Notes under the pieces: generated by a model
Seen by the model: the letters and a program-made list of their open reading frames with translations, nothing else
Databases searched by the model: none
Told to the model about the DNA's origin: nothing
Translations under genes and position numbers: made by a program
Source: Sphingomonas sp. Root710
Lineage (GTDB): Bacteria; Pseudomonadota; Alphaproteobacteria; Sphingomonadales; Sphingomonadaceae
Reading direction: 5' to 3'
Length of the DNA stretch: 64,000 nt
NCBI RefSeq assembly: GCF_001429065.1
Contig: NZ_LMIB01000001.1
Location: 1,594,172-1,658,171, forward strand
Part shown: positions 20,663 through 59,610 of the stretch, piece by piece
How positions within the stretch are numbered: position 1 is the first letter of the stretch
How the letters are laid out: each line of letters begins with the position of its first letter

Positions 20663-21074
20663 GATGCGAAAGCTGGTCGGCGCTGCACCGCCTCGCAAGT
20701 ATCTCCCCGGAAAGCGCCGGAACGCCGGGCTCGAAGGGGTCGCGAGGCTCGCAAAGTCTCCCTGCGGCCGCAAAGGGAGCAAGCAGACCTCCCTAAAAAA
20801 TGATGTGCAGACAATAGCTTAGGGCCACGAGGCCTGGCCGGGGCAACCCGGTTTATCTTGCCATATCCCCCTCCCCCTTTTCCGCCCCTCTCTGTCCGTC
20901 CATCTCCGCACATCTACAGTTCAAGCGGCGAGGCATGCCGTCAGCCGCTGCCGATAGACCGCCAGAATCTGCCGTATGGTGCGCATGGTTTGCTGGCATG
21001 CGGGACCTCCTAGGCAGCGCAGCTCAACGGATTTGCTGTTCGATTTCGTCAAAGGCCGACGCGGAGTGGGCCGA
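20663..21074. other. Region upstream of the relaxase gene; candidate oriT location
   Basis: 412 bases without a convincing gene. Around 20820-20880 there are short inverted repeats (for example CCGGG-GCAA-CCCGG near 20837-20850, and GGCC words), followed by a pyrimidine-rich run (CCCCCTCCCCCTTTTCC). An oriT is expected beside the relaxase gene, and this is the best place for it, but no nic site could be assigned by eye. Confidence 0.35.
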
Positions 21075-28400: not shown

Positions 28401-29520
28401 TGGAAGCCGAGGTACGGACCTCGTCGATTCCGCCGCCAGGCGCCTCAACCACTACGTGTGCACTGGTTATCGTATATACATCGTCGTAGGCCGAACCTTT
28501 GACGCGTTCGATGTTCACATAACTATCTCCGGTCGCATCGCCGCCGCTTCCCATACCGGACACGAGATTGACGTTAACTGCAGCACCAGATCCGGAATAA
28601 TCCACGGTATCGCCCGTGCTGTTGCCGTCGAAGCCTTCAGCGGCCGAACTTGCGATGAAGGTGTCGGCATAGAGCGATCCTCTGAACCATTCGATACTTG
28701 AAAAGGTATCGCCGGCCGCGTCGCCCGTGCTGTTTGCGCCGGTTTTCAGATCAACGGTCACGCCCGCTACAGCGTTCTGATAGCTCGCCGTGTCGGTGCC
28801 GCCGCCTCCGATGAGTTGATCCGCACCACTTTGCCCCCTGAGAAGATCGTTGCCGGCCCCTCCCGTGAGGACGTTATTTCCTCCATTCCCCTCGCCAGAA
28901 AAATTGCCCGTCCCCGTAAAGGTAAGATTCTCGATGTTGGCGCCCAATGAATAACTGTTGAGATTCGTCTGGATGGTGTCGGTTCCACCTCCCGACGCCT
29001 CGGTTATCGTAACGGTGCTAACGTTGCCGTTGAGATTGTAGACGTCGTTGTAACTTGTGCCGATCACACGGTCGATTGCCCAAAAACCGTCGCCCTGAGC
29101 GAGACCTCCGACCCCAGAGCCCGTCTGCGTGGTGGTCGTCAGATTAAAAGTGAGAGTGATGCCTGCGGCGGAAAGCGAGTAGTTGACGACATCATCATCC
29201 CCTCCTGGACCGCCATCAAACGTCGTGGTCGTGCTACCTGCCCAGAAAACATCATTATAGGCTGTTCCGACATAGCTCTCCACACCGGTATAAGTGTCGC
29301 CCACGGCTTCTCCCGTGCTTCGGCTTCCGTCGTACAGATCGATGACCAGCGCCGACCCTGCCGTCTCGTAACTCGCCCAGTCGAACCCGTTGCCTCCGTC
29401 ATAAGCGTCGGCGCCAGCGCCTCCGATCATCCGATCGTTACCATCAAGGCCGGAAATCGTGTCCGCTCCGCTTGTGCCGGTGAGGTAATCGTTGCCCGAT
29501 GTTCCGGTGATGGTCGCCAT
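25402..29520 (-). CDS. Large RTX-type calcium-binding repeat protein
   Basis: A 1372-residue protein made almost wholly of RTX material. It begins ATITGTSGNDYLTGTSGAD and has nonapeptide-type blocks (GGAGNDLLRGQSGADQLIGG and variants) separated by longer Thr/Ser/Asp-rich spacers. Six copies of a ~170-200-residue module recur, each with a NVENLTYTGSGNF-like strand, an RTX block, then TDTASY...GDAAGDTF. No signal peptide is present, and the C-terminal ~75 residues (VSLKDWFAGFNTIEEFETLDHNTFTI) would carry the type I secretion signal. No toxin or enzyme domain is seen, so an adhesin or surface-layer-like role is likely. AGGAGAT sits just before ATG 29520 and fixes the start. No ABC/MFP secretion genes are in the window. 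Confidence 0.9.
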   Translation of the reverse strand: MATITGTSGNDYLTGTSGADTISGLDGNDRMIGGAGADAYDGGNGFDWASYETAGSALVIDLYDGSRSTGEAVGDTYTGVESYVGTAYNDVFWAGSTTTTFDGGPGGDDDVVNYSLSAAGITLTFNLTTTTQTGSGVGGLAQGDGFWAIDRVIGTSYNDVYNLNGNVSTVTITEASGGGTDTIQTNLNSYSLGANIENLTFTGTGNFSGEGNGGNNVLTGGAGNDLLRGQSGADQLIGGGGTDTASYQNAVAGVTVDLKTGANSTGDAAGDTFSSIEWFRGSLYADTFIASSAAEGFDGNSTGDTVDYSGSGAAVNVNLVSGMGSGGDATGDSYVNIERVKGSAYDDVYTITSAHVVVEAPGGGIDEVRTSASSLSILTFANVEKLTYTGTGNFTGEGNSGNNTITGGSGNDTLKGASGADYLVGGLGTDTASYDNAIAGVTVDLKTGMNSTGDAAGDTFSGIEWFRGSSYNDTFIASAATEGFDGNGGISDIVDYSGSSSAVTVNLVSGSGSGGDAAGDTYANVDGVKGSANDDIFVLTSGQFAIESTGGGVDEVQTASSTFDIINFTNVEKLTFIGSGNFVATGNSGANTITGKAGNDTLSGAEGNDTLIGGASGDQLNGGSGTDTASYETSVSAISLNMKTGTHTGDAAGDIFNSIEAFKGSNSNDTFVSGTASDSFDGNGGTDTVDYSTSAAAVAVNLTGGTGSSGDAAGDTYTSIEKVIGSAYADTLSSAMSGDTLAGGTGSDIYVVGASGITVTEASGEGTDEIQTSLASFSIAGIANVENLSYTGSGNFVGTGSAGNNVITGGVGNDTLIGGAGADQLIGGSGTDAADYSASGSAVTINLTAATSSGGDAAGDSFSSIEKAIGSNYADSLSSATSGHTLAGGAGNDIYEVGSSGVTVVEASGEGTDEVQTGLSSLSIASFANVENLTYTGSSSFTGTGNAGNNILTGGNGNDTLIGGGGADQLIGGSGTDVASYENASSGVTLNFKTGTHTGDAAGDSFTSIDAFKGSNFADTFVSGASADTFNGNGGTDTVDYSTSASAITVNLTAGTGSGGDAAGDSYTSIEKVIGSAYADNLSSSTSGHILAGGTGDDLYFVGSSGVTVTEAPGEGSDEIQTGLSSFSIASFANVENLTYTGSSNFMGTGNTGDNIVTGGIGDDTLVGGAGSDQLIGGFGTDTADYSASASAVTVDLTTGTSSGGDAAGDSFASIERVIGSSYADNLSSSTSGHNLYGGDGDDTVAIGDGTALGDGGNDTISSDGTIAVLYGGAGDDTFSVIGSASIFGGEDSDTYDLSSALLDTVTVRDDGSTGFDKVFLPFLDSTSFTQTQVGNDLVLADGTYSVSLKDWFAGFNTIEEFETLDHNTFTI

Positions 29521-29623
29521 CGATATCTCCTGTTTTGCCCACAGGGAGGCTATCAACAGCATTTTTATTAAACTACGGAGAAATAAGCCAAATTGGATCA
29601 AATTTCGCTGAGGGCCTTACTCG

Positions 29624-41702: not shown

Positions 41703-44099
41703 GTGAACGCCTCAGACATGGCCCGACACCGCCTCATCGCGCCGCTGATCCTCGGCGCGATGATCGCCCTCATTGGCCTTGTCTTGGCGATCGGGGGGGC
41801 GTGGCTCGCCATGTTAGGCGGGTCGCTCTACTACCTCCTCACCGGGATCGCGATGCTCGCCTCCGGTACGCTGCTGATCCGCCGACGCGAGCTTGGAATC
41901 TGGCTCTATATGGCGATCTTCGTTGCGACTCTTGGCTGGGCGTTCTGGGAGGTGGGTGCCAATGGCTGGGCTTTGGTGCCTCGCATAATCGCTCCCCTGG
42001 CGCTGCTGATTGCCGCCATCCTCGTCCGCCCGACGATGACAACCGCGTCGCGCCGCTGGATAGCGGCGCTGGGTTCGACAGCCGCTGTGATCCTCGTCGC
42101 GGTCGTTAGCTTCGCTATCATTGGACATTTCACCGCTCCCCAGGTCATGGCCGCCTTGCCGCTCGGCCGCGCGGAGATGGCGGATCCCTCGCCCCTGGCA
42201 GCCGGTGCCGACTGGCCGGCTTATGGCGGGTCCTATAGCGCGCGCCGTTTCTCGCCATTGGCCCAGATCACGCCCGACAATGTCGGCAAGCTCCAACGGG
42301 TCTGGCTCGCCCACACCGGCGATCTGCCGTCCAACCCGGATATCAGGAAGACCTATGGCGCCGAGAACACGCCGCTGAAGATTGGCGACACGCTCTACGT
42401 CTGTACGCCCAAGAGCATGATCGTCGCCTATGATGCGGTGAGCGGAAAACAGCGCTGGCGCTTCGATCCGCGGGTCTCCGACAAAGCGATCCCCTACACC
42501 GCCGCCTGCCGCGGCGTGAGCTTCTACCAGGTGCCCGACGTCCCCGCGACGGCGCCGTGCGCCGCCCGGATCATCTGGGGCACGCTCGATGCACGCCTGT
42601 TCGCCATCGATGCCCGAAACGGCCGGCGTTGCTCCGATTTCGCCACAAATGGCGAAGCCGACATCAAGACCGGCATGGGCCAGGTTCGCGATGGCTATGT
42701 CTCGATCAACTCTCCGCCGACGATCGTCCGCGGCGTTGTCGTTGTCGGTCATCAGGTGCTTGACGGACAGGATCGCTGGGCGCCCTCGGGCGTCATCGAA
42801 GGTTTCGACGCGGTGACCGGCAAACTGCGCTGGGCCTGGGACATGATGCGCCCCGACATCACCGGTGTGCCGCCCGCCGGCCAGATCTGGACCCGCGGTA
42901 CCCCGAACATGTGGACGGCGGCATCGGGCGACGAGGCGCTCGGCCTCGTCTACCTGCCGATGGGCAACGCCTCGGCCGATTATTACAGCAGCCTGCGCCG
43001 GCCCCAGGAGAATGGGTTTGCCACATCGCTGGTCGCGCTCGACGTGAAAACCGGGAAACCGCGCTGGCATTTCCAGGCCGTTCGCAACGATGTCTGGGAT
43101 TATGATTTCGGCGCGCAGGCGACACTCATCGACTATCGCGGTATCCCCGCGCTGGTTTTGCCCAGCAAGCAGGGAGACATCTATGTCCTCGACCGCCGCA
43201 CGGGCCATCCGTTGACGCCGGTCGGCCTGATCAGGGCGCCCGGCGGCGGGGTCGAGCCAGCCCAGCGCGCGCGGCTCCAGCGGGTTTCGCTGTGGCAGAC
43301 CTTGCGCAAGCCGGCACTTACCGAGCGGGATATGTGGGGCATGTCGCCGATCGATCAGATGATCTGCCGCATCCAGTTCCGCAAAGCTTCCTACAAGGGC
43401 TTCTACACCCCGCCGGAAAGCGACCGCCATTCAATCGAATATCCCGGATATAACGGCGGGACCGACTGGGGAGGCGTAGCGGTCGATCCGCGCCGCGGCA
43501 TCATCGTCGCCAACTATAACGATATGCCCAATTATGTCCGCCTCGTGCCCCGAGCGGAGGCGAATCGTAAAGGTTGGACTCCGCGCGATCAGGCCCGCGG
43601 CAAGATCGGCGGCGCCGAAGGTGCGGGCGATCCTCAGGCCCACACGCCCTATGCGATCAATGTCAACGCCGGCTGGCGGATGCCGCTCACCGGCATGCTC
43701 TGCAAGCAACCGCCCTATGGCGGGATCCGGGCGATCGACATCGCGACGGGTAAGACGATATGGGACCGCCCGCTTGGCTCGGCGCGCACCAACGGTCCCT
43801 TCGGCATACCTTCGATGCTGCCGTTCACGATCGGCACGCCGAACAATGGCGGCACGGTGGTGACGGCCGGAGGTGTTATCTTCGTAGCCGCCACCACCGA
43901 CAACCTGATCCGGGCGATCGACCTCAAGACGGGCAAGACGCTCTGGTCGGACACGCTGCCCGCCGGCGGTCAGGCGACGCCGATGGTCTATGAGGCTGGT
44001 GGCCGGGAATATGTCGTGATCGTGGCCGGCGGCCATCATTTCATGGAGACGCCGATCGGCGATGCGGTCGTCGCCTATGCGCTGCCCCGCGCAGGCTGA
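41703..44099 (+). CDS. gcd: Membrane-bound PQQ-dependent glucose/quinate-type dehydrogenase
   Basis: A 798-residue quinoprotein dehydrogenase. Five membrane helices fill roughly the first 150 residues, anchoring it to the inner membrane and the quinone pool. An eight-bladed PQQ propeller follows (DWPAYGGSYSARRFSPLAQI, NTPLKIGDTLYVCTPKSMIVAYDA, GGTDWGGVAVDP, GGVIFVAATTDNLIRAID). It oxidises a sugar or polyol in the periplasm and reduces ubiquinone. The start is GTG 41703 behind GGGAG, or ATG 41718. PQQ synthesis genes are not in the window. Glucose versus quinate/shikimate specificity cannot be fixed by eye. Confidence 0.92.
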   Translation: MNASDMARHRLIAPLILGAMIALIGLVLAIGGAWLAMLGGSLYYLLTGIAMLASGTLLIRRRELGIWLYMAIFVATLGWAFWEVGANGWALVPRIIAPLALLIAAILVRPTMTTASRRWIAALGSTAAVILVAVVSFAIIGHFTAPQVMAALPLGRAEMADPSPLAAGADWPAYGGSYSARRFSPLAQITPDNVGKLQRVWLAHTGDLPSNPDIRKTYGAENTPLKIGDTLYVCTPKSMIVAYDAVSGKQRWRFDPRVSDKAIPYTAACRGVSFYQVPDVPATAPCAARIIWGTLDARLFAIDARNGRRCSDFATNGEADIKTGMGQVRDGYVSINSPPTIVRGVVVVGHQVLDGQDRWAPSGVIEGFDAVTGKLRWAWDMMRPDITGVPPAGQIWTRGTPNMWTAASGDEALGLVYLPMGNASADYYSSLRRPQENGFATSLVALDVKTGKPRWHFQAVRNDVWDYDFGAQATLIDYRGIPALVLPSKQGDIYVLDRRTGHPLTPVGLIRAPGGGVEPAQRARLQRVSLWQTLRKPALTERDMWGMSPIDQMICRIQFRKASYKGFYTPPESDRHSIEYPGYNGGTDWGGVAVDPRRGIIVANYNDMPNYVRLVPRAEANRKGWTPRDQARGKIGGAEGAGDPQAHTPYAINVNAGWRMPLTGMLCKQPPYGGIRAIDIATGKTIWDRPLGSARTNGPFGIPSMLPFTIGTPNNGGTVVTAGGVIFVAATTDNLIRAIDLKTGKTLWSDTLPAGGQATPMVYEAGGREYVVIVAGGHHFMETPIGDAVVAYALPRAG

Positions 44100-48650: not shown

Positions 48651-49073
48651 ATGCCCTCAACATTTAAAACGCTCACGCTTCATGATGCACGCCGCCTTAT
48701 CGCGGCAGGCGAAGCCAAGGCTGAGGCGATCGGCGTTCCGTACAATCTGGCGGTGGTCGATGCCGGGGGCAACCTCATTTCCCATGTACGCATGGACGGC
48801 GCCTGGCTCGGCAGCATCGATATTGCGATCAACAAGGCCTTCACTGCGAGGGCGTTTGACATGGCGACCGACGATCTCGCGAAGATGGCGCAATCAGGCA
48901 AACCTTTGTTCGGCATCGACAGCACGAACCGTGACAGGATCGTGATCTTCGGCGGCGGCGTACCGATCAGGGACGGCGACACAGTGATCGGCGCGGTCGG
49001 AGCGAGCGGCGGAACGGTCGATCAGGACAATGAGGTCGTCGAGGCGGCCTCAAGGGCCTTCGAAGCTGACTAA
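48651..49073 (+). CDS. GlcG/HbpS-family protein
   Basis: A 140-residue protein of the GlcG/HbpS (DUF336) family: TLTLHDARRLIAAGEAKAEAIG, NLAVVDAGGNLISHVRMDGAWLGS, NKAFTARAF and GGGVPIRDGDTVIGAVGASGG are all family-typical. Members bind haem or small ligands and often accompany PQQ alcohol dehydrogenases. ATG 48651 is supported by CGGAG 7 nt upstream. It directly precedes the oxidase/XoxF run (67 nt gap), so it may belong to that transcription unit. Confidence 0.88.
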   Translation: MPSTFKTLTLHDARRLIAAGEAKAEAIGVPYNLAVVDAGGNLISHVRMDGAWLGSIDIAINKAFTARAFDMATDDLAKMAQSGKPLFGIDSTNRDRIVIFGGGVPIRDGDTVIGAVGASGGTVDQDNEVVEAASRAFEAD

Positions 49074-49139
49074 CCCATGATGATGGTTGGAACAAAATTG
49101 CTCCCTGGCACGTTGGCAGGCGGGAGAGGGGATGCCTGG

Positions 49140-49871
49140 ATGGCACCAATTCAGCCCTATTGTGGAGCCCCGCCGGTGCCCGGCGGTCTGCTGGATCGGT
49201 TCAATATCGATCCTCCTCTGATCCTTGCGCTTCTGCTGGCCGCCGCGCTCCATACCGCTTGGATGCACCGCCATGGCAAGTCCGCGACGCTTGCAATTTC
49301 AGGGTGGGCCACCGCGGCGGCGGCTTTCATTTCCCCACTGTGCGCGCTTTCGGTCTCCCTCTTCTCCGCCAGAGTCGGGCAGCACATGATCCTGCTGCTC
49401 ATCGCGGCACCGTTGCTCGCCGCCGGCCTGCCGCGCGTCCGCGGGGAACCCTGGGCGGCAACCGCGCTTTTCTTCGTGCTTCTGTGGCTCTGGCATATGC
49501 CCGCGCCATATGCCGCCACGTTCACGTCGGACGCCATTTACTGGACAATGCATGTTTCGCTCTTCGGGTCGGGAATCTGGCTCTGGGCAAGTCTGCTCAA
49601 CCATGATGCCCGCAGTGGCTTTTCCACCTTGGCTGCGGGTACGATCACCTCGGTCCAGATGGGTATGCTGGGCGCGGTGCTGACACTTTCCCGTCACGCA
49701 ATGTTCACTCCGCATTATTTCACGACCGAAGCCTGGGGTTTCACGCCGCTGAGTGATCAGCAGCTCGGTGGCGCGTTGATGTGGGTGCCCGGTTGCCTGC
49801 TGTTTCTCTGGGTAGGGACGCGCAGTTTCCGCCTGGCTTGGCGCGCGATCGACGGTGCGAGGGCCGCATGA
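49140..49871 (+). CDS. ctaG: caa3-type cytochrome c oxidase assembly protein CtaG
   Basis: A 243-residue polytopic membrane protein of the caa3_CtaG family, needed to load copper into or assemble the oxidase. Visible are YCGAPPVP near the N-terminus, helices LILALLLAAALHTAWM and AAAAFISPLCALSVSLFSARVGQHMIL, LLWLWHMPAPY and SRHAMFTPHY. Conserved His residues could carry copper or haem. ATG 49140 is preceded by GGGAGAGGGG; the longer frame from 49077 adds no family sequence. The stop overlaps coxB by 4 nt. Confidence 0.87.
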   Translation: MAPIQPYCGAPPVPGGLLDRFNIDPPLILALLLAAALHTAWMHRHGKSATLAISGWATAAAAFISPLCALSVSLFSARVGQHMILLLIAAPLLAAGLPRVRGEPWAATALFFVLLWLWHMPAPYAATFTSDAIYWTMHVSLFGSGIWLWASLLNHDARSGFSTLAAGTITSVQMGMLGAVLTLSRHAMFTPHYFTTEAWGFTPLSDQQLGGALMWVPGCLLFLWVGTRSFRLAWRAIDGARAA

Positions 49872-50833
49872 GCGCGACGCCGCTTGCCTTTCTGACAAGT
49901 GCGGGCAAGCGGGCTGCAGCGACGGTACCGCTGACATGGTTCACCCTCGGCATATCGATCCTGGTCTGCGTGATCGTCGCTGTCCTGCTGTGGGTCGGCG
50001 TCGCGCGGTCGAAGGCCCATGGCGGGGCAGCGGAGACAGTCGCCACACCGCTCGCACGGCAAGACCAGAGCGGACTGCGGTGGATCACTGTGGGGTTGAT
50101 GCTGTCCGCAGTCCCGCTGGTCATGACCCTTGTCTGGACGATGGCCGCTCTCGCGCAGGTCGCGGTTCCGCCCGACAATCCGGGCCTGGTCCTCGATGTA
50201 ACCGCGCATCAGTGGTGGTGGGAAGTCCGCTATGAGGGCGCGCTCCCGTCGGACAGCTTCGCTACGGCCAACGAAATCCACATACCTGTCGGGATCCCCG
50301 TGCTGGTGCGCCTGCATGGTCAGGACGTGATCCACAGCTTCTGGGTGCCCAAGCTTTCAGGGAAAACCGATGTCATCCCCGGCCAGACCAACCAGAGCTG
50401 GTTGCAGGCCGCTCAGCCCGGACGATATCGGGGGCAATGCAGCGAATATTGTGGTGCCCAGCATGCCAAGATGGCGTTTGAAGTCGTCGCCGAAAGTCCC
50501 GCCGCCTTCGCGCGCTGGCGCCAGGCGCAGCTTCAGACGGCGCCCCCGCCTCGCAGCCCCGAACAGACCCGTGGGCTTGCGCTCGTCGAATATCGCTGCG
50601 GCCTGTGTCACGCCGTTCGCGGTACCAACGCCTCCTCCTATTATGGTCCCGATCTCACCCACCTGATGAGCCGCCGCATGATCGCGGCCGGGACACTCCC
50701 CAACAATCCAGGCTCGCTGACCGGCTGGATCCAGGCGCCTCAAGGGATCAAACCCGGCAGTTTGATGCCCAATCAGCATTTGAGCGGACCGCAGCTCGGC
50801 GATATCCGCGCCTACCTGGAAACGCTCCAATGA
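49868..50833 (+). CDS. coxB: Cytochrome c oxidase subunit II with fused cytochrome c domain
   Basis: A 321-residue subunit. Two N-terminal membrane helices are followed by the cupredoxin domain with the CuA site, C191-SEY-C195-GAQ-H199 (in GQCSEYCGAQHAKM), and HQWWWEVRY as the electron entry stretch. A C-terminal cytochrome c domain has CGLCH at 244-248 and a Met ligand candidate in SLMPNQHL, making it a caa3-type subunit II. It takes electrons from soluble or bound cytochrome c. It overlaps ctaG and ctaD by 4 nt each. Confidence 0.95.
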   Translation: MSATPLAFLTSAGKRAAATVPLTWFTLGISILVCVIVAVLLWVGVARSKAHGGAAETVATPLARQDQSGLRWITVGLMLSAVPLVMTLVWTMAALAQVAVPPDNPGLVLDVTAHQWWWEVRYEGALPSDSFATANEIHIPVGIPVLVRLHGQDVIHSFWVPKLSGKTDVIPGQTNQSWLQAAQPGRYRGQCSEYCGAQHAKMAFEVVAESPAAFARWRQAQLQTAPPPRSPEQTRGLALVEYRCGLCHAVRGTNASSYYGPDLTHLMSRRMIAAGTLPNNPGSLTGWIQAPQGIKPGSLMPNQHLSGPQLGDIRAYLETLQ

Positions 50834-52773
50834 AGGCCGCCTTTCGCACCCCACAGATTGGTGACGACAATGATATCCTGCGCGCGCGCCTCCACGCGAC
50901 CTGGGAGACGCCGCCGGGCTGGCGCGGCTTCTTGTCGAGCGTCGATCACAAGCAGATCGGCATCCGCTATATCGTGACGGCCTTCGTGCTGCTCGCGATC
51001 GGCGGAATCGAGGCGCTGGTATTGCGGCTGCAGCTTGCCGGCCCCAATCTCCATTTGCTGACGCCCGATCAGTATAATGAGCTTTTCTCGACGCACGGGA
51101 TGACGATGACCTTCCTTTATGCGTCGCCCGTGCTGTCGGGTTTCTCCAATTACCTATGGCCGCTGCTGCTCGGCAGCCGGGACATGGCCTTTCCGCGGCT
51201 GAATGCGCTGAGCTACTGGATTTACCTGGCGGCTGCGCTGTTCCTCTACGCGGGCTTTGTCGTCGGTGCCGGACCGAATGATGGCTGGTTCAATTACGTG
51301 CCCTATGCCGAGAAGGCGTACAGCCCGGGGCTCAACCAGGATTTCTATGGCCTGGGGATGATCCTGCTCGGCATCTCGACGTCGGTCGGTGCCGCGAACT
51401 TCCTCGTCACCTGCTTCAAGACGCGCGCGCCAGGCATGTCGATCAACCGGCTGCCGATCATGGTGTGGGGTACGCTCACCGCGAGCGCCGCCAATCTGAT
51501 CGTCGTCCCCGCCGTCAGTCTCGCTTTCTTCCTGCTGTGGATGGACCGGCAGTTCGGTACTGGCTTCTTCCAGCCTTCCGCCGGCGGTCAACCGCTGTTG
51601 TGGCAGCATCTGTTCTGGCTGTTCGGCCATCCCTGGGTTTACGCGATCGTGCTGCCGGCGATGGGAATGGTGTCGGACGGCCTGCCGGTCTTTTGCCGCC
51701 GCCCGCTCGTCGGCTATTCGCTCGTAGCGCTGTCGACCGTCTCCACGATGATCCTCGGCTTCGGTGTCTGGGTGCATCATATGTTTGCGACCGGCCTGCC
51801 GGGGCTTTCGCTCAGCTTCTTCTCGGGCGCGTCCATAATCATCACCGTACCGAGCGCGGTTGCGGTCTTCGCCTGGCTCGCGACGATATGGACTGGACGG
51901 CCGGTAATCACGACCGCTTCCCGATTCTTCGCCTCAATGATCCTGCTGTTCGTCATCGGCGGCGTCTCGGGGTTCATGACCGCCAGCGTTCCGGTCGACT
52001 GGCAACTGACCGACACCTATTTCGTCGTGGCTCATCTCCATTATGTCCTGATCGGCATCAACGTCTTTCCCGTCGTCGGCGCGGTCTATTTCTGGTTCCC
52101 CAAGATGACCGGCCGGATGATGGACGAGCGTCTCGGCCGCTGGAACTTCTGGACGATGTTTCTCGGCTTCAACCTCGCCTTCCTGCCGATGCATCTCACC
52201 GGTCTGCTGGGCATGCCGCGCCGCATCTACACCTATCCGGAAGGCATGGGCTGGAACACGCTCAACCTGATCACCTCGATCGGGAGCTTTGTCTTCGCGA
52301 TTGGGGTGCTGCTGTTCTTCATCAACGTGTGGAAGAGCTGGCGGAACGGAACGGTAGCCGGGCGCAATCCCTGGGATGCACCGACCCTTGAATGGACCAC
52401 CTCATCGCCACCGCCGCCTTATAATTTCGCGGTAATTCCGACGGTCGCCTCGCGCCATCCGCTCTGGGAAGGCCGGATCGACGAAAGCGAAGAGCGCTCG
52501 ACGCTCGATCGCGGGATGACGCTCGATCAGGGCAAGGAGACGATCCTGACAAGCGCGATGGATGCCGAGCCCGAGCGCATCGCAGAAATGCCGCAGGACA
52601 GCTACGCACCGTTCCTGCTCACGCTGGGTCTTGCGATCCTGTTTGTCGGCTTGTTGCTCAAATATTGGATCATCGTCGCCATCGGCGGTGTCGGCGCCGC
52701 AGCGGCTCTTTTACTCTGGGTATGGCCCCGGGCCGGCCTGCTTGAGCGCATCGAGGAGCGGGTCGATGGTTGA
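50830..52773 (+). CDS. ctaD: Cytochrome c oxidase subunit I
   Basis: A 647-residue haem-copper oxidase core. Twelve core helices are visible, with the haem a His in THGMTMTFLY, the Cu-B/Tyr region FGHPWVYAIVLPAMG, the Cu-B HH pair in WVHHMFATG and the haem ligands in FVVAHLHYVLIG. After the core there is an extra C-terminal segment with two helices (APFLLTLGLAILFVGLLLKYWI; IGGVGAAAALLLWVWP), as in caa3-type subunit I proteins. ATG 50830 overlaps the coxB stop; its end overlaps ctaE by 8 nt. No signs of damage. Confidence 0.96.
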   Translation: MKAAFRTPQIGDDNDILRARLHATWETPPGWRGFLSSVDHKQIGIRYIVTAFVLLAIGGIEALVLRLQLAGPNLHLLTPDQYNELFSTHGMTMTFLYASPVLSGFSNYLWPLLLGSRDMAFPRLNALSYWIYLAAALFLYAGFVVGAGPNDGWFNYVPYAEKAYSPGLNQDFYGLGMILLGISTSVGAANFLVTCFKTRAPGMSINRLPIMVWGTLTASAANLIVVPAVSLAFFLLWMDRQFGTGFFQPSAGGQPLLWQHLFWLFGHPWVYAIVLPAMGMVSDGLPVFCRRPLVGYSLVALSTVSTMILGFGVWVHHMFATGLPGLSLSFFSGASIIITVPSAVAVFAWLATIWTGRPVITTASRFFASMILLFVIGGVSGFMTASVPVDWQLTDTYFVVAHLHYVLIGINVFPVVGAVYFWFPKMTGRMMDERLGRWNFWTMFLGFNLAFLPMHLTGLLGMPRRIYTYPEGMGWNTLNLITSIGSFVFAIGVLLFFINVWKSWRNGTVAGRNPWDAPTLEWTTSSPPPPYNFAVIPTVASRHPLWEGRIDESEERSTLDRGMTLDQGKETILTSAMDAEPERIAEMPQDSYAPFLLTLGLAILFVGLLLKYWIIVAIGGVGAAAALLLWVWPRAGLLERIEERVDG

Positions 52774-53377
52774 GCAGGTGTTGGCTGAGCCTAGCCGGCT
52801 TCCGGTCGGTCCAATCGGCCGGAAGGGCATGGGCTGGTCGGGCGTGCTGATGCTCGTCGCGTCCGAAGCGAGCTTGTTCGGCTATCTGCTGTTCAGCTAT
52901 TATTATTGCGCCGCGACCGCGCAGCCGGGCTGGGTGCTCGAACCCCGTCCGGCTCTTTTCCCCGCTATCCCAAGCACGATCATGCTGCTCGCATCGAGCT
53001 TCACGGCGTTATGGGCCGAGAAGGGAGTCGAGAAGAACAACGAACTCCAGACGCTGCTCGGTCTCGGTATCACCTTCGTCCTTGGGGCCGCGTTCGCCGC
53101 GATCCAGATGCATGAATGGGCGGGCAAGTCGTTCCGGTTCGCCACGTCGCCCTATGCCTCGCTCTATTTCACGACAACCGGCTTCCACATGGCCCATGTC
53201 CTGATCGGGCTCGTCATTCTTCTCACGATGTTCGGCTGGACGGCAGCAGGCTTCTTCTCGCCACGCCGGCGCATCGTCGTGTCGGTCGGTGTGCTCTACT
53301 GGCATTTCGTCGACATCGTCTGGCTATTCGTGTTCACCACCTATTATCTGACCCCCTATCTCGGGTTCGGGCTATGA
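52766..53377 (+). CDS. ctaE: Cytochrome c oxidase subunit III
   Basis: A 203-residue subunit III with five helices. Family features are GWSGVLMLVASEASLFGYLLF (Glu in the second helix), HEWAGKSF, TTGFHMAHVLIGL and YWHFVDIVWLFVFTTYYL. It stabilises the subunit I core. The start lies inside the 3' end of ctaD and the stop overlaps the next small membrane gene by 4 nt. Confidence 0.93.
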   Translation: MVEQVLAEPSRLPVGPIGRKGMGWSGVLMLVASEASLFGYLLFSYYYCAATAQPGWVLEPRPALFPAIPSTIMLLASSFTALWAEKGVEKNNELQTLLGLGITFVLGAAFAAIQMHEWAGKSFRFATSPYASLYFTTTGFHMAHVLIGLVILLTMFGWTAAGFFSPRRRIVVSVGVLYWHFVDIVWLFVFTTYYLTPYLGFGL

Positions 53378-53829
53378 CCGGGCGCAGCAACAGCGGTGAG
53401 CGCACAGGTGGTCTCAGCCATCATCCGGCCCCGCATGCCGACAAGCTGGCCGCGCCATTGACCGCCTTCATCCTCATGGCAGGTCCGCTCGCCTGGCTCA
53501 CGCAGCTGACCGCCGGCTTTGCGATGACAAGCTGGGCATGCTTCCCAGGCGATATACGTTGGGCCGAGCCCAAGCCCGGTTATCCGCTGGCTGCGGTCGG
53601 CGTGTCGATTATCTGCGCCTTGATCGCAGCGGCCTCTGGGCTGGTCGCTTGGCGCAAGTTCGCCGAGGTCAAACAAGAAATGAGCGGAGGCACCCGGCAT
53701 CTCGCCGACATCGGCCACGGCCGCACACGCTTCGTTGCGCTGTGGGGCGTAATCCTTGGTGCCACCTTCACCGTGACCATCCTTGTCACGCTCGTCGCCT
53801 TCGTTCTGGTGCCGCCATGCGCCGGTTGA
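53374..53829 (+). CDS. Membrane protein of the oxidase cluster (unknown)
   Basis: A 151-residue protein with three likely membrane helices (LTAFILMAGPLAWLTQLTAGF; LAAVGVSIICALIAAASGLVA; VALWGVILGATFTVTILVTLVAFVL). It occupies the place where caa3 clusters often have a small subunit IV-like or accessory gene. I do not recognise the family firmly. Its overlap with ctaE (4 nt) and with the next cytochrome gene (13 nt) says it is co-translated and likely part of oxidase assembly or electron delivery. Confidence 0.75.
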   Translation: MTGRSNSGERTGGLSHHPAPHADKLAAPLTAFILMAGPLAWLTQLTAGFAMTSWACFPGDIRWAEPKPGYPLAAVGVSIICALIAAASGLVAWRKFAEVKQEMSGGTRHLADIGHGRTRFVALWGVILGATFTVTILVTLVAFVLVPPCAG

Positions 53830-54149
53830 TCGCGGCCATCGCCCTGGCGCCGCTCGCAGCCTGCCACGATCCGCATGCGGCCGCGAAAGCGCTGATCGCC
53901 GAGCGCTGCGCGGCCTGCCATGTCGTCCCTGGCATCGCCACCGCGACGGGCACGGTCGGGCCGCCCCTCTCCGGCATAGCACGCCAGCAGATCCTCGCAG
54001 GCCGGTATCCAAACCGCCCGGATGTCATGACCCGCTGGCTGATCGATCCGCAGGCGATGCAACCGGGCGGTGCGATGCCATCGACCGGGCTCAGCCCTTC
54101 CCAGGCGAAGATCATCGCCGACTACCTCTACACGCTGGACAGATCATGA
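53817..54149 (+). CDS. Small c-type cytochrome lipoprotein
   Basis: A 110-residue cytochrome c. A short signal (RRLIAAIALAPLAAC) ends in a lipobox-like Cys. The haem motif is CAACH, with a likely Met axial ligand in GGAMPSTGLS. It resembles the small cytochromes found with PQQ dehydrogenases or caa3 oxidases and is a candidate carrier between xoxF, directly downstream (4-nt overlap), and coxB upstream. Confidence 0.85.
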   Translation: MRRLIAAIALAPLAACHDPHAAAKALIAERCAACHVVPGIATATGTVGPPLSGIARQQILAGRYPNRPDVMTRWLIDPQAMQPGGAMPSTGLSPSQAKIIADYLYTLDRS

Positions 54150-56017
54150 TGAAACGCCTCGCCCTGCTAGCCTTGGCATCCGCACCCGCCGCGCTTCTCG
54201 CACAGTCCGTTCCCGCACCCGTCCCTGCGGGGGAAGTGTTCACGCGAGCGCAGATCGGCCGCGCTCTCAGTCCGCCGACCCCAGCGGCCGGACGTACCAA
54301 CGCCAATCCCAGGCTTGCTCCCGCCGACGACGGGCAATGGACGATGCCCGCCAAGAATTATGCGGCGACTCGCTATTCGGCGATGGCCGAGATCAATCCC
54401 GCCAATGTCGCGAAGCTTCGTCCGGTGTTCGGCTTTTCGCTTGGCGTCAACAAGGGCCAGGAAGCGGCGCCTATCGTAGCGGGCGGGACGATGTATGTCG
54501 TCACGGCCTTTCCCAACCTGGTCTACGCACTCGATCTGACGAAGCCGGGCGCGCCGCTAAAATGGCGTTACGCGCCCAAACCGTTGCCCGCCGCCCAGGG
54601 GGTTGCTTGCTGCGACGTCGTCAATCGCGGCGGCACCGTCGACAAGGGCAAGTTCATCTTCAACACGCTCGACGGTCAAACCATCGCGGTCGACATCAAC
54701 AGCGGTAAACCCGCGTGGAAGACCCAGCTCGGGAATATCAACAAAGGCGAGACGATGACGATGGCGCCGCTGGTCGCCAACGGCAAAGTCTATGTCGGCA
54801 ATTCGGGCGGCGAGATGGGGGTGCGAGGCTGGATCATTGCCCTGGACGAAGCGACCGGAAAGGTCGCCTGGAAGGCCTATAATACCGGCCCCGACAAGGA
54901 CGTGCTGATAGGCCCGGGCTTCAAGCCCTTCTATGCAATGGACCGCGGCAAGGATCTCGGCGTGAAGAGCTGGCCGGCTCAGGCCTGGACGATTGGCGGC
55001 GGCAATGTCTGGGGCTGGGTCAACTATGACCCCGAACTCAACCAGATTCTTTATGGCAGCGGCAATCCTGGGCCTTGGAATGCCGAGCAACGCCCAGGCG
55101 ACAACAAATGGACCACCGGCATTTTTGCGCGCGATCCCGATACCGGAGCAGCGCGCTGGTACTACCAGATGTCTCCGCACGACGAGCATGACTATGACGG
55201 CGTCAATGAGCAGATTCTGCTCGACATGCCGTTTGCCGGCAAGATGCACAAGGTGCTGATCCATCCCGATCGCAATGGCTATGTCTATGTTGTCGATCGT
55301 ACCAATGGCCAGGTGCTCTCCGCCGATCCTTACGGTCCGATCAACTCATCGGAAGGCGTCGATCTTGCCACCGGCCGTCTGAAGGTGAACCCGACCAAGC
55401 AGACCAAGCTTGGCCAGGTTATCCGCAACATCTGCCCGACCGCGAGCGGCGCCAAGGACTGGAATCCGTCGAGCTTCAGCCCGCGCACGGCCCTTATGTA
55501 CATTCCGCACGAGAATATGTGCATGGACTGGATGAACCTCGAGGTGAACTACATCTCGGGCACGCCCTATGTCGGTGCAGAGGTGCATATGAAGCCGGGG
55601 CCCGGTGGCAATCGCGGGGTTCTGACCGCCTGGGATCCGGTGATGCGCCGGCCCGCCTGGGAGGTGAAGGAGGATCTGCCGATCTGGTCGGGGACGGTCG
55701 TCACGGGTGGTGACCTGGTCTTCTACGGAACGATGGACGGCTGGTTCAAGGCTGTGTCCGCGCGCACCGGCAAGGAGCTGTGGAAATACAAGGTCGACAG
55801 CGGCATCATCGGTCAGCCGATCAGCTATCGCGGCCCCGACGGTCATCAATATGTCGCCGTGCTGTCGGGCGTGGGTGGCTGGGCCGGCGCGGTGGTCTCG
55901 GGCCCGGTCGATCCGCGCGACGGATCGGCAGCGCTTGGCATGGTCAACGCGATGAGCGATCTCCCCAAGAAAACCACCGCGGGAGGGACATTGTATGTCT
56001 TTGCGCTTCCCAACTAG
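54146..56017 (+). CDS. xoxF: Lanthanide-type PQQ alcohol dehydrogenase (XoxF-like)
   Basis: A 623-residue periplasmic quinoprotein alcohol dehydrogenase. After a signal peptide (LALLALASAPAALLAQS) comes the eight-bladed propeller. The vicinal disulfide pair is C155-C156 (ACCDVV). GNPGPWNAEQRPGDNKW carries the cofactor-site Asn307. The segment HDEHDYDGVNE has D349-Y350-D351: the second Asp is the extra ligand that marks lanthanide-dependent XoxF, where the calcium enzyme MxaF has Ala. It oxidises methanol or other primary alcohols and passes electrons to cytochrome c. No C-terminal haem domain. Start at ATG 54146 or 54149, overlapping the cytochrome gene. Confidence 0.92.
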   Translation: MMKRLALLALASAPAALLAQSVPAPVPAGEVFTRAQIGRALSPPTPAAGRTNANPRLAPADDGQWTMPAKNYAATRYSAMAEINPANVAKLRPVFGFSLGVNKGQEAAPIVAGGTMYVVTAFPNLVYALDLTKPGAPLKWRYAPKPLPAAQGVACCDVVNRGGTVDKGKFIFNTLDGQTIAVDINSGKPAWKTQLGNINKGETMTMAPLVANGKVYVGNSGGEMGVRGWIIALDEATGKVAWKAYNTGPDKDVLIGPGFKPFYAMDRGKDLGVKSWPAQAWTIGGGNVWGWVNYDPELNQILYGSGNPGPWNAEQRPGDNKWTTGIFARDPDTGAARWYYQMSPHDEHDYDGVNEQILLDMPFAGKMHKVLIHPDRNGYVYVVDRTNGQVLSADPYGPINSSEGVDLATGRLKVNPTKQTKLGQVIRNICPTASGAKDWNPSSFSPRTALMYIPHENMCMDWMNLEVNYISGTPYVGAEVHMKPGPGGNRGVLTAWDPVMRRPAWEVKEDLPIWSGTVVTGGDLVFYGTMDGWFKAVSARTGKELWKYKVDSGIIGQPISYRGPDGHQYVAVLSGVGGWAGAVVSGPVDPRDGSAALGMVNAMSDLPKKTTAGGTLYVFALPN

Positions 56018-56570
56018 CATCATCACACTCGCGCTCCTGGGGCTGGCCGCCTGCCACAAGGCGGACAAGGGAGGAATGCCTGCCGAGCAGCCGGATCACC
56101 AAGGCGTGATCGACAGTGGGATCACCCCGGGCACCGAAACTGCGCTTGTCACCGACGATCCGCGGGCCGCGCAATATTATGACAATCCCGCTGCCGTCAT
56201 TACCGGCATGAAGCTCTACAAGGCCTATAACTGTTCCGGCTGCCACTCGGCCGGCGGCGGTGGCATGGGCCCGTCGCTGATGGACGACGTATGGGTCTAT
56301 GGCGGGCGGCTCGCGCAAATTCACCAGACGATCGTCGAGGGCCGGCCCAACGGGATGCCAAGCTGGGGCGGCAAGATCCCCGACGGGCAAATCTGGCAGA
56401 TCGCCGCCTATGTGCGCTCGCTTTCGCTACCGGAGACCCTTGCTGCGCAACATGGCCCAACGCCGGGCCAGTCCCCCGCCCCGGTACCGAGATCGGCCGA
56501 CGCGCATGGGGGCTGGACGCCGCCCAAAGATACCACCAACGATTATACGTCGACGGTGAAGGCGGATTGA
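55995..56570 (+). CDS. xoxG: c-type cytochrome, XoxG-like electron acceptor
   Basis: A 191-residue cytochrome c with a lipoprotein-like signal (LALLGLAAC) and the haem motif C80-SGC-H84, followed by a Gly-rich loop (SAGGGGMGPSLMDD) and RPNGMPSWGGKIPDGQIWQIAAYVRSL, where MPSW supplies the Met ligand. This form is typical of cytochromes next to XoxF, taking two single electrons from PQQ. GGGAGGG at 55981 precedes the ATG; the gene overlaps xoxF by 23 nt and the next gene by 1 nt. A Pro-rich tail ends the protein. Confidence 0.85.
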   Translation: MSLRFPTSIITLALLGLAACHKADKGGMPAEQPDHQGVIDSGITPGTETALVTDDPRAAQYYDNPAAVITGMKLYKAYNCSGCHSAGGGGMGPSLMDDVWVYGGRLAQIHQTIVEGRPNGMPSWGGKIPDGQIWQIAAYVRSLSLPETLAAQHGPTPGQSPAPVPRSADAHGGWTPPKDTTNDYTSTVKAD

Positions 56571-57526
56571 TGCGGCGCCGATTATTGGCCCTTGTCCTGT
56601 TCGCGGCATCGCCATCGCTCGCCGACACAGTGCTCGTTTCGGATGAGACGAAAAACGTCCTCCACGTCATCGATGGCGTAAACGGTGCTGTCCAGGCCGA
56701 CATAGCGGTGGACGCGCGCCCGCGTGGGCTGGCGGTCTCGCCCGACGGCAAGAGCCTCTACGTTGCGGCGGGCAATGCCAACACCATCGACGTCGTCGAT
56801 CTCGCGACGCGCAAGATCGTTCGTCGCCTCGCTTCCGGTTCGGATCCCGAGCGCTTCGTCGTCAGTCCGGACGGTACCCGGCTCTATATCGCCAACGAAG
56901 ACAACAGCGCGGTCACATTCCTCGATATCGCCAGCAACAAGGCCATCGCCTCGGTTCCTGTTGGTCCGCAACCGGAAGGGATGGCCGTCAGCCCAGACGG
57001 CAAGCTGGTGATCGCCACCGCCGAGACATCGAGCACCACCCACTTCATCGACGTGGCATCGGCCAAGGTGCTCGACAGCGCGCTGGTCGGCTCACGTCCA
57101 CGCTCGGCGATTTTTCTGAGTGGCGGCAAGCAATTGTGGGTCACATCGGAACTGCGCGGGACGATCGCGATCTTCGATCCCGCCACGCACAAGATCACCG
57201 ACACGATCGATCTTGTGAAGCTGATGCCCGACATCGATCCCGTGCAGGCGGTCGAACTACTCGTGACACGCGACGGCAAGCGGCTGTTCGTGGCGCTCGG
57301 CAGGGGCAATCATGTCGCCGAGCTCGATCCCGAAACGCATAAGCTCGTGCGTGTTTTTCCCGTCGGTGAGCGCAACTGGGGGATCGCGTTGTCGCCCGAC
57401 GGAAGTCGGCTTTATGCCGTCGCGGGCCTGTCATCGGACATGACCGTGATCGATCTTCAGGCCAACAAAGTAATCCGGACGGTCAAGCTCGGAGAGCGCC
57501 CGTGGGGCGTGGTGGCCGTGCCATGA
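56570..57526 (+). CDS. PQQ-catabolism-associated beta-propeller protein (YVTN repeats)
   Basis: A 318-residue secreted beta-propeller: signal RRRLLALVLFAASPSLA, then seven YVTN-type blades (RGLAVSPDGKSLYVAAGNANTIDVVD; PERFVVSPDGTRLYIANEDN; EGMAVSPDGKLVI and so on). Proteins of this type accompany XoxF-like dehydrogenases in many Proteobacteria, with an unproven accessory role (metal or cofactor handling, scaffold). It is coupled to xoxG (1-nt overlap of TGATG) and to the xoxJ-like gene (4 nt). Confidence 0.85.
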   Translation: MRRRLLALVLFAASPSLADTVLVSDETKNVLHVIDGVNGAVQADIAVDARPRGLAVSPDGKSLYVAAGNANTIDVVDLATRKIVRRLASGSDPERFVVSPDGTRLYIANEDNSAVTFLDIASNKAIASVPVGPQPEGMAVSPDGKLVIATAETSSTTHFIDVASAKVLDSALVGSRPRSAIFLSGGKQLWVTSELRGTIAIFDPATHKITDTIDLVKLMPDIDPVQAVELLVTRDGKRLFVALGRGNHVAELDPETHKLVRVFPVGERNWGIALSPDGSRLYAVAGLSSDMTVIDLQANKVIRTVKLGERPWGVVAVP

Positions 57527-58299
57527 TCGGCCTTCTCGCGCTGATCGCGGCGGTCGTCCCATCGCCCGATCTGGTGGTGTGCGCGGACCCAAATAATCTG
57601 CCCTTTTCGAACCAGGCGGGAGAGGGCTTCGAAAACGAGGTCGCGGAAATCGTCGCCCATGATCTTGGTCGCAGGGTCCGCTATGTCTGGTGGGCACAGC
57701 GTCGCGGCTATGTTCGCAACACGCTCGGCGAAGCGAAATGCGATATCTGGCCAGGGGTCGCGAGCGGGGTCGAGATGGTGGCGACAACACGCCCCTGGTA
57801 TCGCTCGACCTATGTCTTCGTCACGCGAGAGGACCGGCCACTGAGCGGACTGACGCTCGATGACCCGCGCCTCAAGACGCTGTCGATCGGCGTCCAGATG
57901 GTCGGCAACGATGCACAGAACACACCTCCGGCGCATGCGCTGTCGGTGCGGGGACTGATCGATAATGTTCGCGGATATATGATCTACGGCGATTATGCGC
58001 GACCCAATCCCCCGACCGCGATCATCAAGGCCGTCGCCGATGGCGACATCGACGCTGCGATTGTGTGGGGACCGCTGGCGGGTTGGTATTCCCGCCACGC
58101 GGTCGTTCCGCTCAGGATCGAGAATGTGACGCCGTGGCTCGACCAGGGTCAATGGCCGATGGTGTACGATATCTCGATGGGCGTTCGCCGTGACGATCCG
58201 CAGCTGCGTCGAAAGGTGGAAACGATCCTCGAAAGCGAAAAGCCAGCGATTGGGGCTATCCTCCACCAATATGGTGTGCCTGTGGTCGATACACAGTGA
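57523..58299 (+). CDS. xoxJ: XoxJ/MoxJ-like periplasmic substrate-binding-fold protein
   Basis: A 258-residue protein with a short signal and a bacterial solute-binding fold: LVVCADPNNLPFSNQAGEGFENEVAEIVAHDLG, then VWWAQRRGYVRNTL and CDIWPGVASG. This is the quinoprotein dehydrogenase-associated binding protein type (XoxJ/MoxJ), thought to help activate or mature XoxF rather than to serve an ABC transporter; no permease genes are nearby. It ends the plus-strand run that begins at ctaG. Confidence 0.87.
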   Translation: MIGLLALIAAVVPSPDLVVCADPNNLPFSNQAGEGFENEVAEIVAHDLGRRVRYVWWAQRRGYVRNTLGEAKCDIWPGVASGVEMVATTRPWYRSTYVFVTREDRPLSGLTLDDPRLKTLSIGVQMVGNDAQNTPPAHALSVRGLIDNVRGYMIYGDYARPNPPTAIIKAVADGDIDAAIVWGPLAGWYSRHAVVPLRIENVTPWLDQGQWPMVYDISMGVRRDDPQLRRKVETILESEKPAIGAILHQYGVPVVDTQ

Positions 58300-58413: not shown

Positions 58414-58974
58414 TTAGTTCGCCGGCTGAGCGCGAACACTCTCGCGAAGCCGGGCAAAATCGCCCGGAGCCAACATCGGCACCGCTTCGACAAACGCTAC
58501 GACGTCGGTTATCTGCCGATCGGAGAGTAACTCTCCCCATGCCGGCATGGCGGTCATCTTTACGCCATGCCGCACGATATGTTCGAGTTCGTGGTGCCGC
58601 CAACGTACCCGCGCATCGAGCAGGAAGGGCGGCGTCGGCAGCATGGCACTCACCCACGGCGCCCTGGCGACGCCGGGGCCGCCATGGCACTCTATGCATC
58701 GCGCCTCGTACACCTTCGCCCCGGCCAGCAGCCTTGCCCGATCCATGGTAGGCGGCGGTCCGCCGGTGGCGGCGCGCCATTTCACGGAATGAATCATCGT
58801 CATGTGGATCGCCCAAGCGATCGGCTTGGGGTGAGGACTGTCGGCACTGGTATCATAGGCGATACCGAACAGGATCAGGGCCGACACAAGGAGGCCGATG
58901 ACTGCCGCAGTCAACATCCCTAGCAGCCATCCGAGTAGCAGTGGTTTTGTCCCAATTTTTCGCCGGATCGCCAT
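58414..58974 (-). CDS. Membrane-anchored cytochrome c
   Basis: A 186-residue protein with an N-terminal membrane helix (LLLGWLLGMLTAAVIGLLVSALILFGIAY) and a monohaem domain: CIECHGGPGVA for haem binding and MTAMPAWG with the axial Met, then ITDVVAFVEAVP. It is convergent with the xoxJ-like gene and follows the next cytochrome gene on the minus strand with overlapping stop and start. It probably belongs to the alcohol-oxidation electron chain, under a separate promoter. Confidence 0.85.
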   Translation of the reverse strand: MAIRRKIGTKPLLLGWLLGMLTAAVIGLLVSALILFGIAYDTSADSPHPKPIAWAIHMTMIHSVKWRAATGGPPPTMDRARLLAGAKVYEARCIECHGGPGVARAPWVSAMLPTPPFLLDARVRWRHHELEHIVRHGVKMTAMPAWGELLSDRQITDVVAFVEAVPMLAPGDFARLRESVRAQPAN

Positions 58975-59327
58975 CAGCGGAGCGTATAAAGGTAGGCAGC
59001 GATATTGCGCGCCTGCTCGTCGGTAAGGTGCTGATCGGGCATCGCGTTGGTCGTTACGATCGACGCGGGCGATTTGAGATAATGCTCTAGATTACCAGGA
59101 GAGTTCGCGAGCACTCCGACGATCATCTGCCGTGATGCGAAATGCGCAAGCGAGGGACCTGCCATACCATCGGCCCCCTCGATGCCAGGAATAAGATGGC
59201 ACGAACCGCAGGCCTCGCGCGCTATCATGAGCTCTCCCTCATCGGCTCGACCCATAGCGACTGGCGTAGCGGGCAATTGCTGGCAGCTGCTCATTATAGC
59301 CGGCGCTAATATTAAAATCGCGCGCAT
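58974..59327 (-). CDS. Small c-type cytochrome lipoprotein
   Basis: A 117-residue cytochrome c with signal RAILILAPAIMSSC (lipobox Cys) and haem motif CGSCH. The Met ligand is in TNAMPDQHLTDEQARNIAAYLYTL, closely similar to the C-terminal cytochrome domain of coxB (SLMPNQHLSGPQLGDIRAYLETL) and to the small cytochrome at 53817. A longer frame to 59468 exists, but the lipoprotein signal begins at ATG 59327. It is first in a two-gene unit. Confidence 0.83.
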   Translation of the reverse strand: MRAILILAPAIMSSCQQLPATPVAMGRADEGELMIAREACGSCHLIPGIEGADGMAGPSLAHFASRQMIVGVLANSPGNLEHYLKSPASIVTTNAMPDQHLTDEQARNIAAYLYTLR

Positions 59328-59610
59328 AATTAAGCGCCGCGCGATGGAAGCATGTTTACGCTCAATGCGATGTTTTTCGGTGCGCAGATCATCGAGCTGG
59401 CACGGGCTCGCGCCGGCACGCGCGCCACAGAGTCGCTCGGCCCCCATCTCGATCGCGGCATCGTTCATGTCGCTCTACCTCTCGCACGGCTGGCAAACCG
59501 CATGCCGCGATATGGACGGCTTTGGGTCGGCCTGACTAGCCCACTTCTCGTCGCGACGATGAAAGGAGATTCCCGGTGGTGCGCGCGCTGACAGCGCAAC
59601 GAGCCAGGTA

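Follow-up and report, generated by a model that had tools for sequence, protein, structure and literature searches.

We analysed a 64,000-nucleotide (nt) stretch of Sphingomonas sp. Root710 (contig NZ_LMIB01000001.1, positions 1,594,172 to 1,658,171, forward strand; hereafter the window) for a gene unit that joins a caa3-type oxidase to a lanthanide-type alcohol dehydrogenase, XoxF. The source genome (4.77 Mb, 21 contigs) is 99.99% complete. Positions 48651-58299 of the window hold eleven consecutive plus-strand genes: hbpS, ctaG, cox2, cox1, cox3, orfX, cytc1, xoxF, cytc2, a beta-propeller gene and xoxJ. The first-pass annotation, made from the sequence alone, had described ten one-strand genes from ctaG to an xoxJ-like gene with overlaps of 1-23 nt. 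All ten were found in a row, with such overlaps at every junction, and the parts it had named (CuA-cytochrome subunit II, subunits I and III, the cytochromes, the propeller and the binding protein) were backed by curated models.

The oxidase half begins with ctaG (49077-49871; PF09678, 104.6 bits, cut-off 27.7), which encodes a caa3-type CuB assembly factor. It is followed by cox2 (49868-50833; TIGR02866, 157.3 bits, cut-off 147.7, and PF00034), in which a CuA domain is fused to a cytochrome c with the motif CGLCH; cox1 (50830-52773; TIGR02891, 675.7 bits, cut-off 670.75) for subunit I; and cox3 (52766-53377; PF00510, 89.8 bits, cut-off 23.8) for a short subunit III covering profile positions 74-255 of 258. 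The next gene, orfX (53374-53829), had been left unnamed by the first-pass annotation. Its product is a small protein, predicted to lie in the membrane, that matched nothing in NCBIfam or Pfam at E≤0.001 and had two Pfam matches of ≤13 bits at E≤1. The dehydrogenase half consists of cytc1 (53817-54149; PF00034), a small SoxX-like cytochrome c (TIGR04485, 34.8 bits, below the cut-off of 61); xoxF (54149-56017; TIGR03075, 606.7 bits, cut-off 480.05), for a pyrroloquinoline quinone (PQQ) methanol/alcohol dehydrogenase; cytc2 (55995-56570; PF13442), for a cytochrome c that is probably the XoxG-type electron acceptor (TIGR03872, cytochrome cL, weak at 32.8 bits, cut-off 147.8); the PQQ-associated beta-propeller gene (56570-57526; TIGR03866, 342.3 bits, cut-off 287.3); and the xoxJ-like gene for a periplasmic binding protein (57523-58299; TIGR03871, 286.3 bits, cut-off 212.15). 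Two small cytochrome c genes on the minus strand (58414-59336) point at the 3′ end of the unit, and the second is SoxX-like, as is cytc1.

Overlaps on the oxidase side are 4 nt (ctaG/cox2), 4 nt (cox2/cox1), 8 nt (cox1/cox3) and 4 nt (cox3/orfX). The orfX/cytc1 overlap is 13 nt, or 4 nt with a TTG start, and the dehydrogenase-side overlaps are 1 or 4 nt (cytc1/xoxF), 23 nt (xoxF/cytc2), 1 or 4 nt (cytc2/propeller gene) and 4 nt (propeller gene/xoxJ). For ctaG, either the longest start, 49077, or 49140, which is an ATG as well, is possible. The hbpS-like gene (48651-49073; PF03928, 144.7 bits) ends 3 nt upstream of the longest ctaG start, and the unit may begin there rather than at ctaG. A promoter scan found 1 site against 3.2 expected, which is not above chance and is uninformative on co-regulation; a terminator scan found 10 against 7.9 expected, nothing clearly above chance.

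Subunit II of the window carries the CuA ligands (motif CSEYCGAQHAKM) and a cytochrome c domain, as a caa3-type oxidase does. Subunit I has the features of family A: the active-site Tyr in helix VI, the six His, a TIGR02891 score above cut-off and the fold. Its structure model (predicted local distance difference test score, pLDDT, 84.9; predicted template modelling score, pTM, 0.90) has two extra C-terminal helices at residues 593-610 and 613-631, which align with the ends of subunit I of bo3, aa3-600 and Thermus caa3. In those enzymes the corresponding helices may count as subunit III helices. The channel residues are different from those of the Rhodobacter sphaeroides aa3 oxidase (family A1; 1M56), whose numbering is used here. 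K-channel Lys K362 is replaced by Ala (codon 345, 51862-51864), D-channel Glu E286 by Trp (codon 269, 51634-51636) and N140 by Ala; the two extra helices and the cytochrome c on subunit II also set the window oxidase apart from 1M56. In model oxidases, changing K362 or E286 nearly stops the enzyme.

We aligned 148 subunit I (COX1) rows and termed those with Trp at position 286 W-type and those without Lys362 K-less. Tyr288 and the six heme/CuB His were kept in 148/148 rows. Lys362 was present in 46 (45 with Glu286 and 1 with Ala286; one canonical row, L112, duplicates L001) and in none of the other 102. All 78 W-type rows had Trp286, and none had Lys362. In the COX1 tree the 102 K-less rows formed one clade (support 99), within which the 78 W-type rows formed another (support 98). 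The W-type clade spans Pseudomonadota, Acidobacteriota and Gemmatimonadota, and the K-less group additionally takes in Actinomycetota and Chloroflexota. The Q-type branch has instead lost D132 (8 of 9 rows). Subunit II of the W lineage kept the CuA motif in 70/72 rows and CxxCH in 70/72. A Glu that precedes the second helix of subunit II in L112 was missing from the corresponding alignment position in all the rows inspected (17 W-type and 3 Q-type). In the window protein Phe-Gly precedes His284; the known site has no carboxylate and no Tyr-Ser pair.

Membership of A1 was rejected on E286 (E278 in Paracoccus denitrificans), which is Trp, and K362 (K354 in P. denitrificans), which is Ala. In family A2 a Tyr-Ser pair replaces the helix VI Glu, and the K channel is kept. 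The window protein, with Phe-Gly at the helix VI site and Ala at 362, was rejected for A2 as well (for the helix VI Tyr of A2, see a passage of PMC3084760). A nitric oxide reductase or a dead copy was also rejected, because the O2-site Tyr and the six His are kept. K-channel loss has already been published for archaeal family A oxidases, according to a section of PMC8239418. Our literature search, which covered open-licence papers and leaves an earlier report elsewhere possible, found no description of a K-channel-lacking oxidase of the present kind, and the motif HPWVY did not occur in the 20 of 84 open-licence papers listed. The loss of channel residues in an oxidase linked to XoxF, which was not found in those papers, is the new part of this work.

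The best PDB match of the window XoxF was 4MAE (E = 1.9e-183), which we take to be the XoxF2 methanol dehydrogenase of M. fumariolicum SolV. The D-Y-D lanthanide signature noted in the first-pass annotation was confirmed as Asp348-Tyr349-Asp350 (55190-55198), that is, the catalytic Asp and, two residues on, the added lanthanide-binding Asp. The added Asp was present in 52/52 rows of the window's XoxF set; the Ca-type reference 5XM3 has Ala at this place. The catalytic Asp, the Cys-Cys pair and the other tested metal and PQQ residues are also present, and at the tested places the PQQ and lanthanide residues are the same as in 4MAE. By this residue criterion, the window protein is a lanthanide-type dehydrogenase. 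In the XoxF tree one branch (support 99/88) separated 51 oxidase-linked rows from 24 controls and references, so that 4MAE lies across it from the oxidase-linked group, as do 7O6Z, 6OC5, 6DAM and 5XM3. A quick tree grouped 53 rows with a support of 95, and the long-branched control L119 fell within this group. The window's XoxF set takes in Acidobacteria and Gemmatimonadota, in agreement with the XoxF3 description in a part of PMC10875860; the tree contains no XoxF3-labelled sequence, and the window XoxF is a candidate member of clade 3.

The association of xoxF with the oxidase was surveyed from both sides. In the best 80 of 583 cox1 relatives, with flanks of up to 10 kb, the closest genus-named relatives were from Sphingomonas (L004 and L047; 82% identity). 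W-type loci numbered 72 among these 80, and 42 of the 72 carried xoxF; where at least 5.5 kb was available on both sides, the count was 24/40. The non-W loci of the same 80 carried it in 0/8, 4 of them with flanks of at least 5.5 kb. This set favours K-less oxidases, because the loci were found with cox1. Five W-type loci added later brought the total to 77, of which 45 had xoxF, 43 of these 45 on the same strand, at a distance of 0.8-4.1 kb; these values indicate linkage beyond chance. Two same-strand gene orders were observed, with xoxF upstream in 26 loci and downstream in 17. Relatives of orfX were found in 57/77 W-type loci versus 0/9 Q-type loci, and relatives of hbpS in 10/77 W-type loci.

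A second survey used evenly drawn genomes, 398 of the phylum and 149 of the family, with XoxF as query too. At most 3 candidates per genome were scored in the phylum sample and at most 8 in the family sample, and the match counts are therefore lower bounds. The phylum sample gave at least 55 XoxF matches at E≤1e-130. Those of at least 53% identity adjoined a cox1 match within 5 kb in 8/8 cases, and the other 47 (≤49% identity) were not near a cox1 match. Twenty of these 47, picked by hand along the list and not at random, were inspected over ~9 kb where the contig allowed (L128 had only 1.5 kb on one side); relatives of cox1, cox2, cox3 and ctaG were found in 0/20. In the family sample XoxF of at least 67% identity was linked in 3/4 cases, the exception being genome G140. 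Counting both samples and the window once, an XoxF close to that of the window had the oxidase alongside in 10 of 11 genomes. The oxidase beside XoxF in these 11 was W-type in 5, Q-type in 5, absent in 1 and canonical in 0. Among the 51 oxidase-linked XoxF rows the partner was W-type in 46 and Q-type in 5. On the XoxF tree the Q label required 4 changes, at least 3 of them forced by well-supported branches, and each exchange was between K-less types. Chance or a single-genome artefact as the cause of the linkage was rejected by the surveys of relatives and genomes. The oxidase and the lanthanide dehydrogenase, for whose gene order the first-pass annotation had proposed a survey of other genomes, form a conserved module.

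The linkage itself is not new; it is a known arrangement, found here in a sphingomonad. As a novelty it was rejected, since COX operon type a-II (PMC4013037) and the xoxF3-cox clusters of PMC10875860 (presumably by Voutsinos and others, 2024) already show it. Type a-II, as defined in a section of Degli Esposti 2014 (PMC4013037), combines a COX1-COX4 fusion with a separate COX3 of 5 helices, and its operon frequently includes a gene resembling that of a PQQ methanol dehydrogenase. The window unit is similar in its long COX1, its separate COX3 and its PQQ methanol-dehydrogenase-like gene; two extra helices, candidates for a COX4-like part, were observed at the end of COX1. A passage of PMC6431628 places type a-II under A1 subtype a, whereas the channel residues of the window do not fit A1. 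According to the same section of PMC4013037, the vast majority of Sphingomonadales have type b only; unlike that pattern, the present sphingomonad has a type a-II-like copy. Sections of PMC10875860 report that Acidobacteria have XoxF3 with CoxI-III, CtaG, CytC, XoxG and XoxJ and that XoxF3 systems occur in further phyla; earlier cases are mentioned there with a citation of Keltjens 2014. Many of the xoxF3 clusters shown there carry NRAMP, but none was seen in the window unit, which additionally has hbpS and the propeller gene. Proton channels are absent from the main text of that paper (0 words beginning with "proton").

The first-pass annotation had called the chain complete, which was overstated in regard to PQQ. 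No pqqC match was found in the window's genome by a search that was positive in 8/16 genomes, and PqqE gave matches only far below cut-off, in a search without a positive control. PQQ is therefore probably imported, and the chain here probably needs PQQ from outside. Among the linked genomes pqqC was likewise not found in G423, G365, G136, G081 and G397, and was present in G269, G497, G502 and G520. According to a part of PMC10875860, PQQ synthesis was possible in 16 of its 38 XoxF genomes. No PqqU-type importer was found at E≤1e-60 among the 54 of 131 candidates scored in the window's genome (the E. coli control was positive). The window also encodes a membrane-bound PQQ dehydrogenase of the glucose/quinate type (41703-44099, plus strand; TIGR03074, 935.1 bits), in a genome without a pqqC match; further PQQ dehydrogenase relatives were found as well.

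We consider it likely, from gene content and residues, that the unit is a transferable respiratory module leading from alcohol to oxygen, with PQQ from outside and an oxidase of the K-less W-type branch of family A. In such a module, presumably co-transcribed, periplasmic XoxF would oxidise a short alcohol using PQQ taken up from outside and a lanthanide. Its electrons would pass to cytc2 as the XoxG-like carrier, then to cytc1 or to the cytochrome c domain of subunit II, and on through CuA and heme a to heme a3-CuB, where O2 would be reduced. The first-pass annotation had claimed that neither a bc1 complex nor quinone is needed. Electrons could indeed reach O2 through cytochromes c, bypassing both; this bypass applies to periplasmic PQQ alcohol dehydrogenases in general and is not special to the locus. 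Since the canonical K-channel Lys and D-channel Glu are absent, protons for the O2 chemistry would have to take a different way in, and pumping is probably weaker or altered. We read the oxidase as one with a non-canonical proton route or without pumping in the usual way.

Several observations weigh against this module. Of the 40 W-type loci with sufficient flanks, 16 lacked xoxF, so the link is not obligatory. In G140, XoxF was 77% identical to that of the window and no cox relative was present in the 19.5 kb around it; in G123, G461 and G463, which have a W-type oxidase, nothing matched XoxF at E≤1e-130. Strict monophyly of the 51 oxidase-linked XoxF against 27 others was rejected (approximately unbiased test, p-AU 5e-37), in a test that counted the G140 gene (L105), an oxidase-less XoxF inside the group, as outside; with some placements of the root the oxidase-linked group may be a grade. 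The window's genome also encodes a bc1-type cytochrome b and a canonical aa3 oxidase, and the caa3-type oxidase is therefore not the only possible outlet. The last point would suit a reading in which there is no dedicated circuit, XoxF electrons go mostly to canonical aa3, and the unit is held together through joint transfer. Transfer is suggested by the sparse occurrence of such oxidases in the family (at least 77% identity in 3/149 genomes). However, passive travel would not account for a pairing that persists in both same-strand gene orders and through repeated switches of oxidase type, and we regard this reading as unlikely.

The W-type loci without xoxF bear on another reading, in which the oxidase takes electrons from several periplasmic dehydrogenases, XoxF being only one client. 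Some of these loci carry other redox genes, namely those for proteins with three CxxCH heme motifs (L033, L045 and L103). Given such loci, the oxidase can probably serve other donors too. As the whole explanation, a set of several clients leaves the 10/11 linkage of close XoxF, against none for more distant XoxF, unexplained; we rate it as quite possible, a little short of an even chance, and it is compatible with the alcohol-to-oxygen module, as both can be true together. Two W-type loci without xoxF, L047 and L044, had varied neighbourhoods, with nearby proteins that by eye were thiamine pyrophosphate (TPP)-dependent-like and GMC-like. The oxidase might also pump about canonically by a rewired path, in which case the loss of Lys and Glu would be energetically meaningless. 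The D-channel entrance (D132, N139) is kept, and clade-special residues such as Glu61 in helix I, Tyr97, Thr303, Thr306 and Thr384 could contribute. On the other side stand the helix VI site of the window protein, which offers no known substitute, and the Q-type branch, in which D132 itself is lost; such pumping is conceivable, and we incline against it.

Returning to the alcohol-to-oxygen module, we offer one extension only tentatively, as we doubt it somewhat more than we believe it. A large branch of family A oxidases may first have lost the K-channel Lys and later impaired the D channel, either by Trp for E286 or by Asn/Thr for D132. The lanthanide dehydrogenases close to the window XoxF would be partners of such oxidases in every linked case observed, with one type exchanged for another at least three times. 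The pair would form a low-yield or non-pumping chain and so a natural experiment on the residues that are essential for O2 reduction. A clade lacking both K362 and E286 has been maintained across three phyla. Should O2 reduction by the W-type oxidase proceed at a normal rate, the proton-entry model would not hold for family A oxidases in general. The energy that soil bacteria gain from lanthanide-dependent alcohol oxidation is also concerned, provided that the present XoxF is XoxF3, which a part of PMC10875860 gives as the commonest soil type in one study (340/411 sequences).

Elsewhere in the window, a His-Xaa-Ser radical SAM peptide system lies on the plus strand at 161-3173 (HxsB, 374.7 bits, cut-off 370; HxsC, 316.3 bits, cut-off 267.9; HxsA, 123.5 bits, cut-off 121.65). 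An RlxS-type relaxase gene on the minus strand (18641-20782; 817.1 bits, just below the cut-off of 850) may belong to a mobile element. Also on the minus strand, positions 25402-29601 encode a 1399-residue RTX calcium-binding repeat protein (PF00353).

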